Assembly: GCA_024280015.1 (NCBI GenBank)
Contig: JAJRQY010000157.1
Coordinates: 99,235 to 163,234, forward strand
Source of the DNA: Actinomycetes bacterium
GTDB lineage: Bacteria; Actinomycetota; Acidimicrobiia; Acidimicrobiales; SZUA-35
DNA: 64,000 nucleotides
Reading direction: 5' to 3'
Shown one piece after another: positions 5,451-64,000 of the stretch (position 1 is the first letter of the stretch; each line of letters opens with the position of its first letter). A model generated the notes under the pieces. It saw nothing but the letters and a program-made list of their open reading frames with translations. It was not told the DNA's origin and searched no databases. The position numbers were made by a program, and so were the translations under genes.

Positions 5451-6089
5451 ATGCAAATCGCAATCCCCCTGTTCCATAACGTGACCTATCTTGATGCCAT
5501 CGGGCCCTATGAGGTTCTTCGCCAACTACCGGAGACCCAGGTTGTCTTTGTCGGCGACAAGAAAGAACTCATACGTACGGGAAATGGCGACATGGGGGTG
5601 ATGGTCGATGCCTGCTTCGAGGATGTCGTCACACCGGAGGTGATAGTCGTGCCTGGCGGGTACGGGACACGAGCCGTTGTCGCCGAGGAGGGCCACCCGC
5701 TTGTTCGTTGGATTGCTCAAGCACACCGCTCGACTCTTTTTACTACCTCTGTCTGTACCGGTTCCTTGGTTCTGGCCAAGGCGGGACTCTTGCCTGGGCT
5801 GACGGCTGCCACCCATTGGAGCGCCTACAAGGGTTTGGAGGGCCTTGGTGCGAGATCAACGACAAGCCGGGTTGTCGAGCACTTGGATGACCGGGTCATT
5901 ACCGCGGCGGGAGTTTCCTCTGGCATTGACATGGCTCTGCGATTGGCCGAGCTTCTGACGGACGAAACAACAGCCAAGGCGACCCAACTCATGATCGAAT
6001 ACGACCCTCAGCCGCCCTTCAATGCCGGAAGCGTCGACAAGGCAGGCTCCGAGGTGATGAATCGCTTGATCGAGATGCAAACCTCTTGA
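5451..6089 (+). CDS. DJ-1/PfpI family protein
   Basis: MQIAIPLFHNVTYLDAIGPYEVL...VCTGSLVLAKAGLL; ORF track start (5103) is too far upstream. Confidence 0.85.
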   Translation: MQIAIPLFHNVTYLDAIGPYEVLRQLPETQVVFVGDKKELIRTGNGDMGVMVDACFEDVVTPEVIVVPGGYGTRAVVAEEGHPLVRWIAQAHRSTLFTTSVCTGSLVLAKAGLLPGLTAATHWSAYKGLEGLGARSTTSRVVEHLDDRVITAAGVSSGIDMALRLAELLTDETTAKATQLMIEYDPQPPFNAGSVDKAGSEVMNRLIEMQTS

Positions 6090-14081: not shown

Positions 14082-14177
14082 GGAGGTGTCCGAGTACCTG
14101 GTGGGCTCCCCCGCCTTCAAAGCGGGTGTGCGGTGTGATCCATCGCAGGCGGGTTCGATTCCCGTCCACCTCCGCCA
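14082..14177 (+). tRNA. selC: tRNA-Sec (anticodon TCA, 14117-14119)
   Basis: GGAGGTGTCCGAG...CCCGC-CTTCAAA-GCGGG...long variable arm...GGGTTCGATTCCC...CACCTCCGCCA; extended acceptor and encoded CCA. Confidence 0.93.
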
Positions 14178-34199: not shown

Positions 34200-34877
34200 A
34201 TGACCGAGTCTTTCCTCGTCTTCCCCGATCCCGCCCCACCCGACATTGTCCGCCAATTGGACTTCGATGGGTATCAGTGGCGCGCCGTGTCCAGCGTGGA
34301 GCAGCTGGTTGAGGCTGAGCCCGAGGAGGGTTGGACCGGGGCCATTGTTGATATCACCGACAATTCTGAAAAGGCCTGGGCCTTGTGCCGCGAGCTCCGT
34401 CGACGTGACGTTCCCGTTGAACCGTTGCTGATCCTGGCTTCGGGGAGTCAGCTGGATGAACTCGCCGAATTTGACGAGCTATTCGACGAGTTCATGGTGA
34501 CCCCCTTTCACTCCAAGGAACTGGAGGCCCGAGTCCGACATCTGCTGTGGAAGGCCGGTCGAGGAGCTCGACCCGAGCTGGTGACCTATGGCGATCTGGT
34601 CCTCAATCTGGAGACGTATCAGGCTGTGCTCGATGGTCGCCCCCTTGATCTGACCTATATGGAATATGAGCTACTTCGATTCCTGGCCGCCCATCCAGGC
34701 AAGGTTTTCAGCCGCGAAGCATTGCTCAGCCAGGTCTGGGGATATGAGTACTACGGGGGTGCTCGCACCGTTGACGTCCATGTTCGCCGTCTTCGATCCA
34801 AGTTGGGTGAAGAACATGCCAGCCTGATCCAAACCGTGCGCTCCGTTGGCTACAAGCTGGGCCAAGGCCGATGGTAG
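34200..34877 (+). CDS. OmpR-family winged-helix response regulator (GlnR-like)
   Basis: C-terminal LTYMEYELLRFLAAHPGKVFSREALLSQVWGYEYYGGARTVDVHVRRLRSKLG; receiver atypical; downstream of glutamine synthetase. Confidence 0.85.
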   Translation: MTESFLVFPDPAPPDIVRQLDFDGYQWRAVSSVEQLVEAEPEEGWTGAIVDITDNSEKAWALCRELRRRDVPVEPLLILASGSQLDELAEFDELFDEFMVTPFHSKELEARVRHLLWKAGRGARPELVTYGDLVLNLETYQAVLDGRPLDLTYMEYELLRFLAAHPGKVFSREALLSQVWGYEYYGGARTVDVHVRRLRSKLGEEHASLIQTVRSVGYKLGQGRW

Positions 34878-40817: not shown

Positions 40818-40958
40818 GGCCCCAGTGTGCCACGACTTTGTTCCGTGTCGCGTTTGCGACCCGGTAGAGGGTCGAAACCGCGCCACCCGACCGCTGGCCG
40901 AAGATGCCGCCAGTCCGGATACTCAAGGTCACCACTTCCGGCACCGAAAACCAGTCCC

Positions 40959-51184: not shown

Positions 51185-51436
51185 GGGACAGAGTTAGGTC
51201 GGGCGATCCGACTCTGTCCCATCTAAGTCTCGCTCGCCGCAGCGAGGGTCCTGGCTTGAATCAATCCCTCCTCAAGCCGGACCACCTTTCTGGAGAAGGG
51301 CGACCTCCAGTCGCCTGGCCTGGAGTTCCCTCCCCAGGTCAGGCATCAATCTCCTCCGGCTAGACCGGAAACAGTTTCCGACCACGATCGGGAAAAGGAA
51401 AGTGCAGGGCCGGTGGGCGATCCGGTCCTGCGCTTT
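51185..51436. other. hairpin-rich intergenic region (possible structured RNA and/or tandem terminators)
   Basis: GGGACAGAGT...ACTCTGTCCC (51185-51220), CTCGCT/AGCGAG, GGCTTGA/TCAAGCC, GGCGAC/GTCGCC, AAAGtGCAGGGCCGG/CCGGTCCTGCgCTTT (51399-51436). Confidence 0.6.
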
Positions 51437-51530
51437 CGCCGTTTTACCTTCTGTGATTTCGCCTACCGGTCTTTGGTCTCCACCGGGTCGCCAAGACTGG
51501 GACTAGCGAGTCAGGAAGATCGGGTTGCAG

Positions 51531-60921: not shown

Positions 60922-60982
60922 ATCGTTCCTGCTGGCCTCGCCTGGCCCTGTGCCGCCTCTACCCGGCCTGCCCGCCCCAGCA

Positions 60983-61031
60983 AACTTTCTGGGTTACACG
61001 ACCCTTTACTGGTCGCTGAATCCAGAAAGTT
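60983..61031. repeat. hairpin A flanking AbiEi/DUF559 gene (outer arm = 21-bp inverted repeat)
   Basis: AACTTTCTGGgttacaCGACC-ctttact-GGTCGctgaatCCAGAAAGTT. Confidence 0.85.
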
Positions 61032-61039
61032 CATGACTA

Positions 61040-61966
61040 CTAACGGTTCACTGCAAGATTGGAGACAATCACAGACATGACCCAGTCCCAATGACCAGTG
61101 AACTGTGTCCATGTGAATCGTCCTACGTTCCATCCCTGACGAGAGAGGTCTGCATCGCGTCGGCGATCCACTTCGAAAGCTTGCCTGCCAAGGTGATACT
61201 CCACACTGTCGAGTTCAATTGCGTAGCGCTGTTCGGGATAGGCCAAGTCAACCTGAGCGAGGAAAGCACCATGCTCATCATGAATACGCCACTCCATCCG
61301 TGGCCGAGGTAGGCCACTTCTCATCAGTTCTGCCACGAAGTCGCGGCTCCATTTGGAAAGAGGGATCGAACGATCGGCTGAGCGTTCGTTCACAATCTGT
61401 GAAATTGTTCTCGACCCGGCTCGGCCTTGTTTGGCGTATCGGCTGAATACGCCTTCGATCCGGTTCCAAGTCGAGAGCTGCTTCCGTAGACACTCGTCAA
61501 TGAGCTCGTGTAGCTCTGCTCGGCCAGTGAGACCTGCTACCGATGCCAAGCCAAGTTCGAGGGAAGCGGTTGCGATGCCTTGACGCCTGGTATGGGGCAA
61601 GGTCTTCAGTCCAGTCACAAAGTGGGGCACCATTTTCTCACTCTGTAGATCGCGTTCGAGCGCAATCGTTGGCCTCGACGGGTGCTCGCACAGACCCCAG
61701 AGGGCAAGGGCCGATTGTCCCCAGGCGATGGCGTTTGAGCCGATAGTGGCTGCGGTGAGCGGGGCCAGCGGATTGTCGGCGTGGCCGGACAAGATGAGGG
61801 TGCCTCGTGCCGGGCCGGGGATCCACTGGCGTTGGCGGACCCGTCGGTCGATCTGAGCCCGGGTCATGCCAGCGGCTTGTGCTTCACTGCGCAAAATCAC
61901 ACCATGATTGGATCGAAGCGCGGCTTGCTCAAGGCGGGTGCGGACTTCATGGTTGTGCGCAGGCAT
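61040..61966 (-). CDS. AbiEi-like winged-helix N-terminal domain + DUF559/Vsr-like PD-(D/E)XK nuclease domain
   Basis: HGVILRSEAQAAGMTRAQIDRRVRQRQWIPGPARGTLIL; C-terminal LAQVDLAYPEQRYAIELDSVEYH...DRRRDADLSRQGWNVGRFTWTQF. Confidence 0.82.
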   Translation of the reverse strand: MPAHNHEVRTRLEQAALRSNHGVILRSEAQAAGMTRAQIDRRVRQRQWIPGPARGTLILSGHADNPLAPLTAATIGSNAIAWGQSALALWGLCEHPSRPTIALERDLQSEKMVPHFVTGLKTLPHTRRQGIATASLELGLASVAGLTGRAELHELIDECLRKQLSTWNRIEGVFSRYAKQGRAGSRTISQIVNERSADRSIPLSKWSRDFVAELMRSGLPRPRMEWRIHDEHGAFLAQVDLAYPEQRYAIELDSVEYHLGRQAFEVDRRRDADLSRQGWNVGRFTWTQFTGHWDWVMSVIVSNLAVNR

Positions 61967-62067
61967 CGGAGTGATCTCCTCGGTTGACCGGGTGTGGCTG
62001 GTTCCGGGAGCGAGACTCCGATGACTGCGAGACTAGGTGAGCCCTGTGACATCGAGCGACATCAGCA

Positions 62068-62116
62068 AGGTTTCTGGACGCCGCGACCCTTTGCTGGTCG
62101 TCTAACCCAGATAGTT
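62068..62116. repeat. hairpin B, second copy flanking AbiEi/DUF559 gene
   Basis: AGGTTTCTGGacgccgCGACC-ctttgct-GGTCGtctaacCCAGATAGTT; reverse complement of 62096-62116 matches 60983-61003 at 19/21. Confidence 0.8.
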
Positions 62117-62420
62117 CACCCGGCAGGGCGGCCTGGGAGATCTTCCTATCGATCTGGGTATCGAGGGTGGCCTAGCGTTGAACGATGGCGGAAAGTGGAA
62201 CGAGAATTCGCGGGGATAGCGGGACCGGCGTTGTTGGCACTGCTGGCCAGACCAAGACTGTTGATCTGGCTAGAGCCGTAAACTGGGGCGCGTCTTCTGG
62301 CGGATCCGTGATGCGGGTGGTACCGTCGAGTTCCCGGGCATTGCTCGGCTTCGGCGTTGTCTCGCCCAGAAACCATGATCGTCTCCGTTGTCTTGGAGGC
62401 GCAATCAATGAAGGTGCTGG

Positions 62421-63026
62421 ATGCTGAAGAGACGATCGAGACTGACGGGCCCAACAGGACTGCCGCGTAAGTCATGGCATGCCGTATTGCTAATGACTGC
62501 GGTCGCCGCGCTAGCAGGCTGCACCGGAGGCTCCAACGAAGCCGCTCCAATACCAACCATTGAGCTCACGACCACAACAGTCCTTGCAACTACCACGACA
62601 ACCGAACCAACCACCACCACCGAAGACCCCAACCTCGCCGAAATCATGGCGGCAATCGAGGGGTACTTCCTCTATTTACCGGCGAAGGGAGTAACAGGAG
62701 ACAACACATCGCTCGATCAATTCGCCGCTGATCCGATTCTCACACGAGTCGCCGACAACCTCGATTCATGGTTTTCCGCAGGAATACGCGTCAGTGACAC
62801 GTCCTATGACATACACATCGTTGATGTGACGATCGATGACGGCAGGGCGACCGTGACCACTTGCAACTTGGACGGAGTATCCACTGAGACCCAGACCGGA
62901 GAAGAGTTTCTCCCGGCAGATGCCGTTCGTTACCTTCGACGTACCGAACTCCAACTCTTGGATCAAGGCTGGCGAGTGACCGAGAACGGGTTTGTAGAGG
63001 GGGAGAGGACGATATGCGAGGCATAA
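62421..63026 (+). CDS. hypothetical lipoprotein with Thr-rich linker
   Basis: LLMTAVAALAGCTGGSNE lipobox; TTTTVLATTTTTEPTTTTE linker. Confidence 0.7.
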   Translation: MLKRRSRLTGPTGLPRKSWHAVLLMTAVAALAGCTGGSNEAAPIPTIELTTTTVLATTTTTEPTTTTEDPNLAEIMAAIEGYFLYLPAKGVTGDNTSLDQFAADPILTRVADNLDSWFSAGIRVSDTSYDIHIVDVTIDDGRATVTTCNLDGVSTETQTGEEFLPADAVRYLRRTELQLLDQGWRVTENGFVEGERTICEA

Positions 63027-63910
63027 CAGGAGTGCTTCTAGGCATGTTGTTCTTCCTTGCGGGAAGCTCCACCGCTCTAGCCGGCAGTGTGGACGGATCT
63101 GATCCCAAGCTACCCCCGCCGCCGAGTACGGATCGGGAATATGACGCAACAATCGGAGTCGACTTCGATGGCTCGGGAACTTCACCCAAAGGCAAAGACA
63201 TCCTCAAAGGATGCGCCATCGTCACCAACCTCAACCCCGAACAACTCCTGGACTACCTCGGCGGAACCGGCCAAGACCTCATCAACTTCGACCCCGCCAA
63301 CCTGCCCGAAGACACCTTCTTCCACTTCATCTCCTGCCCCGTCATCACGTTCGGCAATATCAACTGGATGGTCTGGGAAGTTACCGATCCCGTCCCCAGA
63401 CCGGTCATCGAGGCTGTGGCCCTTGCCGCCTACAATTCCGCAGTTGTGCCCCTCCCAGCGCCACTGACTTCTCCCGACGGAACCCGAGACATCCCCCTCA
63501 TCACCCAACTCCCCACCTGGTACTGGACCGACTCCACCCTTTGGCAACCCGGCTCCGTCACCGCCACCATCCCCGAATTCAACATCTCCGTCACCGCAAC
63601 CGTCACCCCAACAACCTCCTGGTGGGACCCAGGCGACGGCTCAACACCAATCACCTGCCAAGCAGGCGATACCTGGACACCAGGCTCCAACGACAACGAC
63701 GCCCCCTGCAGCTACACCTACACCAACACCACCCAACACGACGGCACCAGCGAGCCCTACAAACTCACCACCACCATCGAGTGGACCGTCACCTACACCT
63801 GCGTCCCCGCCAACAACTGCACCGGACCACCCAACGTCCCCGGCTCCATCATCACCAACGTCACCCGCGACATCTGGGTCACCGAAATCAAAGGCCTCAT
63901 CACCCACTAG
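63014..63910 (+). CDS. hypothetical secreted protein
   Basis: Signal peptide MRGITGVLLGMLFFLAGSSTALAG; overlaps the preceding lipoprotein gene by 13 bp. Confidence 0.7.
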   Translation: MRGITGVLLGMLFFLAGSSTALAGSVDGSDPKLPPPPSTDREYDATIGVDFDGSGTSPKGKDILKGCAIVTNLNPEQLLDYLGGTGQDLINFDPANLPEDTFFHFISCPVITFGNINWMVWEVTDPVPRPVIEAVALAAYNSAVVPLPAPLTSPDGTRDIPLITQLPTWYWTDSTLWQPGSVTATIPEFNISVTATVTPTTSWWDPGDGSTPITCQAGDTWTPGSNDNDAPCSYTYTNTTQHDGTSEPYKLTTTIEWTVTYTCVPANNCTGPPNVPGSIITNVTRDIWVTEIKGLITH

Positions 63911-63958
63911 ACCTAGCGCCAGGCTAGCGACCGGTGCTTTCATCTACTAGAGAAGAGA

Positions 63959-63996
63959 GTGCAGTTCACGACCCAATAGTGGGTCGCCAACTGCAC
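63959..63996. repeat. hairpin C at window end with CGACCC/GGGTCG core
   Basis: GTGCAGTTcaCGACCCA-atag-TGGGTCGccAACTGCAC. Confidence 0.75.
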
Positions 63997-64000
63997 AAAG

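Follow-up and report, generated by a model that had tools for sequence, protein, structure and literature searches.

Two imperfect palindromes of about 50 nt, W1 and W2, bracket a 308-aa AbiEi/DUF559 gene in the window (the whole 64,000-nt stretch of actinobacterial DNA analyzed here, from genome G000), and related palindromes are dispersed between genes elsewhere in this genome. Gene and palindromes together resemble the pairing of REP repeats with their transposases, but with an enzyme of another kind, and appear not to have been described before. On balance we favor a REP/RAYT-like system in which the protein would recognize its cognate palindromes, and cutting followed by repair would spread the palindromes, the gene and sometimes cargo. 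The features of the locus are given in Table 1.

Table 1. Palindromes and genes at the nuclease locus, in window coordinates.
Feature	Position	Strand	Remarks
Palindrome W1	60983..61031	+	3′ side of the nuclease gene, ending 8 nt beyond its stop codon; 53.8 bits with model R1
Nuclease gene, 308 aa	61040..61966	-	AbiEi-like N-terminal part and Vsr/EDxHD-like nuclease domain
Palindrome W2	62068..62116	+	About 100 bp upstream of the nuclease gene start, same orientation as W1; 46.3 bits with model R1
Cargo gene 1, lipoprotein-like ORF, 201 aa	62421..63026	+	Flanked by W2 and the 63953 copy; contig C145 carries a related sequence, likewise between palindromes; 45% relative in G001
Cargo gene 2, ORF, 298 aa	63014..63910	+	Signal-peptide-like start; 82% identical copy on C145 and 62% homolog on G001:C174, both between palindromes
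Third palindrome, GTGCAGTT arm type	63953..64000	+	Truncated where the window ends; contigs C139 and C141 also start with it

In direct orientation, the 49-nt units of W1 and W2 are identical at 36/49 positions, while the best chance match to a W1-type 49-mer in 60 Markov-simulated windows of the same composition was at most 29/49. A repeat comparison places both in a 56-nt family (60978-61033 and 62063-62118, identity 77%). Each unit has two 22-nt arms with 6-7 nt between them; the arms of the 49-nt units are AACTTTCTGG and CCAGAAAGTT, and the core is CGACC-CTTTRCT-GGTCG. In the window there are exactly two occurrences of the core CGACCCTTTRCTGGTCG. Across the whole 4.8-Mb genome, a 37-nt structured pattern allowing up to 3 mismatches gave two matches, and the genome-wide pattern search found no further close copies of the window pair. 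BLASTN with one unit returned no usable relatives because the arms diverge while their pairing is kept, and tRNA was the sole match in an Rfam search. An 18-nt degenerate pattern, which was of the wrong length, was rejected after giving hundreds of chance matches; one among them was a related palindrome adjoining a nuclease paralog.

The first-pass annotation had described a gene between two related imperfect palindromes at 60983-62116, and both coordinates and sequences are correct. We also reproduced its 19/21 match between the outermost 21 nt of one copy and the reverse complement of the other, and the first palindrome does begin just past the stop codon. Its reading of the units as terminal inverted repeats is not supported, however. 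W1 and W2 also match when inverted because each is nearly palindromic, but as whole units they are direct repeats. Its term hairpin suits only one of them: as single-stranded DNA, W1 has a convincing fold (z -6.0) but W2 does not (z -1.1). Since W1 alone of the pair folds convincingly, "paired inverted half-sites" fits better than "hairpins". A terminator scan found no U-tract or terminator-like site at W1 or W2, in agreement with the earlier view that these are not simple terminators. W1 starts 103 nt after a tRNA-Pro gene, about the distance given before, but we judge this neighborhood to be incidental. With a third family member at 63953-64000, the system reaches past the range 60983-62116.

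Elsewhere in the window, the palindrome model scores weakly (22.8 bits) on the minus strand at 40841-40890. Two good inverted repeats at 51398-51437 and 34456-34495 (scores 13 and 11) are unrelated to the palindrome family. ARAGORN predicts a tRNA-SeC gene with anticodon tca at 14082-14177.

The protein appears to be an AbiEi-like part joined to a domain resembling the homing endonuclease I-Bth0305I. Its weak Pfam matches, all under the gathering cut-offs, are to REase_MTES_1575 (PF18741, E 4e-8) and DUF559 (PF04480, 1.6e-3) at the C-terminus and to AbiEi_4 (PF13338, 4.6e-3) at the N-terminus; they cover residues 17-45 for AbiEi_4 and about 225-303 for the MTES_1575/DUF559 domain. The AlphaFold (AF2) model of the 308-aa protein has a pLDDT of 91. 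Foldseek matched it to the Streptococcus agalactiae AbiEi antitoxin (6y8q, E 1.3e-5) and to the I-Bth0305I catalytic domain (3r3p) with a probability of 1.0 and a TM of 0.77 on the target, but an E of only 0.013. The conserved residues of the nuclease are E225, D240, E251, D253, H258 and D267; of these, D240, E251, D253, H258 and D267 are invariant across 40 homologs with identity down to 24%. A PDB sequence search and an IMG/VR search returned no relatives. The neighboring ORFs encode a response regulator and a lipoprotein-like protein, and no AbiEii (DUF1814) toxin gene is among them. The site bound by AbiEi consists of two 23-bp inverted repeats separated by 3 bp (PMC7319586), close in size to the 50-bp unit with its 22-nt arms.

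To follow the family we used R1, a covariance model built from 14 palindromes of two genomes; G001, G035 and G036 lay outside the training set. The R1 units, which had been picked by pairing, show covariation above shuffles. An R1 search located about 29 palindrome sites in G000 and 28 in G001, another species of the genus. Most of the dispersed sites lie between genes, near the 3′ ends of these, with many solo copies between convergent genes and close to both stop codons. Their ends are sharp against unrelated flanks. The unit is (g)AAGAT..TGSAGTTGRCGACCC-N6-GGGTCGYCAACTSCA..AAGYT(cg) in G000 and GAACTTTGAGC-N5-CGACCC-N6-GGGTCG-N5-GCTCAAAGTTC in G030 (24 copies), and units end in AAG/AAC...STT or TTC...GAA. 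In the G030 units and in sponge MAGs, the arms are almost invariant and the sequence separating arm from core is freely variable. One dispersed palindrome is kept at the orthologous site in two genomes that are ~89% identical. Near-invariant arms together with this retained site suggest selection on the sites, beyond recent dispersal alone.

In many G030 units (L289-L308) the inner core is repeated by an outer pair, CGACCCC ... GGGGTCG, in the flanks at about -16 and +16, and the full G030 unit may be ~82 nt. The nuclease pair of G036 (L132:4533-4614 and 5691-5772) is a compound unit, 82 nt long and with CGACCC palindromes nested inside it, in contrast to the 50-nt units elsewhere.

Of 61 related genomes, five (G000, G001, G030, G035 and G036) have 25-70 R1 matches with both strands counted, and the other 56 have 0-4. 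The same five encode the closest nuclease homologs (E 6e-93 to 1e-71), although that of G035 is a split ORF with a 57% segment. The link between the hairpins and DUF559 genes that the first-pass annotation suggested looking for genome-wide is therefore present, with R1 abundant only where a close homolog is encoded. Part of this co-occurrence is co-divergence because R1 is sequence-specific. Within genus g10, 3/10 sampled genomes have both the palindromes and the nuclease and the rest have neither, except for G010 with a distant nuclease homolog and four weak R1 matches.

Pairs of related palindromes bracket not only the window gene but also each of its paralogs on C139 and C141, both nuclease genes on C180 of G001, and the homologs in G030 and G036. 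Each pair is also specific to its gene. For the three nuclease genes of G000, the two palindromes of a pair are mutually nearest (similarities of 0.72, 0.90 and 0.86 versus 0.52-0.68 between genes), as are those of the two G001 genes (0.68 and 0.76 versus 0.44-0.52). Among 20 other G000 copies the nearest pair is that of C141 for 13, of C139 for five and of the window for two. In the R1-scored pairs of G000, G001 and G030, the same strand is favored for both members; inverted pairs are found in one GTDB clade. The C139 paralog (L123:11343-12188), next to asd, lacks ~44 N-terminal residues, which form the AbiEi_4 part, and its upstream palindrome lies in their place. This truncated paralog is probably in decay, though palindromes of its type remain at other sites.

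We also compared insertion sites between G000 and G001, whose DNA is only ~70-80% identical, so that the presence or absence of a site can be compared but exact insertion points and target duplications cannot be read. In G001, ParA and PAP2 are adjacent convergent genes with no palindrome between them. In G000 they are separated by a ~3-kb palindrome-cargo-palindrome-nuclease-palindrome block, joined across C145 and C141. Four solo palindromes of G000 are likewise absent from the orthologous intergenic sites of G001. The comparison covers loci other than that at tRNA-Pro, where the G001 sequence ends about 120 nt past the tRNA. The empty sites that the annotation had thought worth seeking thus exist in the sister species for the block and the four solo copies, but the nuclease paralog next to asd is syntenic between G000 and G001, and at least that gene is therefore vertically inherited.

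The cargo (62421-63910) is present in two copies in G000 and one in G001, each between palindromes, and its second gene matches no Pfam family. With such genes also between palindromes, the earlier reading as a minimal element is not supported. In four hairpin-less genomes with a cargo homolog, no palindromes are found at the cargo. The C15/C139 flanks are syntenic with those of C174/C64 in G001, so the C145 cargo copy is probably the newer of the two in G000. Contigs C15, C145, C139 and C141 fork exactly at the 63953-64000 palindrome, where a ~138-nt identical stretch ends that joins two upstream and two downstream contigs. The fork suggests recent copying or gene conversion there. The genomes compared are mostly fragmented MAGs, and the C145-C141 and C15-C139 joins rest on the ~138-nt overlap together with synteny.

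To determine whether the arrangement extends beyond these genomes, we scanned GTDB for nuclease relatives, found 80 loci, and computed flank enrichment on 55 of them. Strong palindromes are present in 22/55 of the 3′ flanks versus 82/938 control ORFs (8.7%, P 2.5e-9) and in 18/55 of the 5′ flanks versus 61/938 (6.5%, P 3e-8). In about 22/60 cases the similarity between the 5′ and 3′ flanks exceeds the 99th percentile of the controls, with sequences that differ between lineages. In a distant, sponge-associated nuclease lineage (L198/L201) the layout recurs, but its palindrome is an unrelated one, also dispersed. Of the two cognate genomes, G062 has 8 and G063 has 6 sites that match TCTGCGCG-N25-CGCGCAGA exactly, while five control genomes have none. 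Most of the sites are intergenic; their arms are invariant, an inner YYACA/TGTRG is conserved, and the spacers vary. The bracketed DUF559 gene of L201 has as its neighbor a DUF4268 gene with a palindrome on each side, both of the same type (L201:4791-5895). For the L244 (Microthrixaceae) pair, only the pair itself was found and no dispersed copies. In five sponge MAG loci (L180, L182, L185, L186 and L190), the nuclease flanks are tandem arrays of ATCTCGGG...-type repeats, inverted between the two sides. The wider proposal of the first-pass annotation, a possibly mobile nuclease bracketed by cognate palindromes in the manner of REP/RAYT, is partly supported, by the DUF559 association, the insert-free sister sites and this second lineage, while its minimal, terminal-repeat and hairpin elements are unsupported or doubtful.

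In the mechanism we favor, the AbiEi-type DNA-binding part would recognize two ~22-bp half-sites facing each other, that is, a palindrome, and is joined to a predicted nuclease domain of the EDxHD/Vsr-like homing endonuclease type. The cognate sites would be the palindrome upstream of the gene, which perhaps doubles as an operator, the one just past the stop codon, and the dozens dispersed between genes. A palindrome that is cut or nicked would be repaired from another copy and so spread. DNA bracketed by two palindromes, the nuclease gene and sometimes cargo, would be carried along by the same repair, and recombination between two direct copies could leave a solo palindrome as the excision product. 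The computational comparisons show the association of palindromes and nuclease, the matching of each pair to its gene, and insertion; from them we infer binding and cleavage of the palindromes by the protein, and movement by this nuclease rather than by another enzyme.

Foremost among the alternatives is a protein whose many binding sites are maintained but which takes no part in spreading them. The palindromes would then be operators or chromosomal landmarks bound by the AbiEi nuclease and kept by selection for a host or defense function, for example autoregulation with a regulon or the marking of self DNA, and the protein would not move them. We consider this unlikely but a serious contender. 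Members of the AbiEi family bind their own promoters at paired 23-bp inverted repeats (PMC7319586), and the nearly invariant arms with variable spacers, the site kept between sister species, and W2 as a poor hairpin but a good half-site pair are all consistent with it. It accounts less well for the palindrome after the stop codon of each gene, for solo copies mostly in intergenic positions near gene 3′ ends and not in promoters, for sharp-ended units absent at orthologous sites, and for bracketed cargo at an extra locus. Spread by the nuclease and maintained binding sites can both be true. Such a dual view has likewise been proposed for REPINs.

It is decidedly improbable that an unrelated transposase or recombinase moves the palindromes and the genes between them as non-autonomous elements, in which the nuclease would be cargo, as TnpB is in IS605-type elements. 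Other genes are indeed found between palindromes, both the lipoprotein/ORF cargo and the DUF4268 gene by the L201 nuclease. But a PF01797 search found no Y1 transposase in G000, each nuclease paralog matches its own palindrome type, and it is the nuclease with which the palindromes co-occur. That the palindromes are bidirectional transcription terminators of the lineage, surrounding the gene by chance, is very unlikely despite the many solo copies between convergent genes and close to both stops. They have no U-tract, number about 29 per genome, have conserved sharp ends, are missing from orthologous intergenic sites, and are confined to nuclease-bearing genomes. Chance palindromes or an assembly artefact, which contigs breaking at palindromes in a MAG assembly could have suggested, are scarcely credible given a similarity far above shuffled expectation, and are refuted by recurrence in independent genomes, assemblies and lineages.

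Dispersed palindromes are among the commonest repeats of bacterial chromosomes, with a dedicated enzyme mainly for those linked to RAYTs and none for some families (PMC3733652). If our reading is true, a second, unrelated enzyme class is tied to its own palindromes, the abundant unassigned AbiEi_4/DUF559 genes of Actinobacteria gain a defined substrate, and the REP-like way of life has more than one origin, with differing chemistry. The system also explains together the duplicated cargo genes, the contig breaks at repeats and the inserts missing from the sister species. It is possible, though we hold this more tentatively, that such AbiEi-homing-endonuclease fusions are widespread selfish or domesticated elements, which spread their own lineage-specific ~50-bp palindromes and the genes between them by break-and-copy without a transposase, and that they may supply the missing enzyme for some transposase-less palindrome families. 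The open-access literature, to which our search was confined, with subscription papers and preprints outside it, yielded no description of DUF559 or AbiEi genes linked to palindromic repeats.

Several known systems share parts of this arrangement. Integron attC cassettes also place genes between palindromes, but attC identity was rejected on inspection as the R''/R' boxes RYYYAAC / GTTRRRY are absent from the unit ends. IS200/IS605 elements have palindromes of the same orientation at both ends, but G000 has no TnpA (Y1). CGTC-tagged REPs are dispersed palindromes without a dedicated transposase (PMC3733652). Like them, the palindromes here are short, dispersed and without a tyrosine-transposase partner found; they differ in sequence and length. 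With EDxHD/Vsr-like homing endonucleases (I-Bth0305I, 3r3p) the nuclease shares the catalytic fold and conserved acidic and His residues. Unlike them, it is encoded by a free-standing chromosomal gene outside any intron or intein, has an AbiEi-like N-terminal part, and has an intact copy of its presumed site on either side of its gene. The N-terminal fold is that of AbiEi antitoxins of type IV toxin-antitoxin systems (6y8q, Rv2827c), whose known members have two 23-bp inverted repeats as DNA sites, and the upstream palindrome, a predicted site, is of the right size. However, no AbiEii toxin gene adjoins, the protein is a nuclease fusion, and palindromes are also found downstream and genome-wide.

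In REP/RAYT systems, the gene is flanked by two short palindromes, copies are dispersed between genes, the palindrome type is specific to the enzyme, and distribution is patchy (PMC2817692). All four features are shared by the nuclease and its palindromes. The enzyme here is AbiEi-like with an EDxHD/Vsr-like nuclease, whereas RAYT (TnpA-REP) is a Y1 HUH transposase, for which PF01797 had no match in G000 (a control search was positive in 5/14 known genomes). The pair is direct rather than inverted, and the units of ~50 nt, in about 30 copies, have no GT(A/G)G (GTAG) head. Lacking a Y1 enzyme in G000, an inverted pair and the GTAG head, the system is set apart from REP/RAYT and fails its defining features, yet it is REP/RAYT that it works most like.
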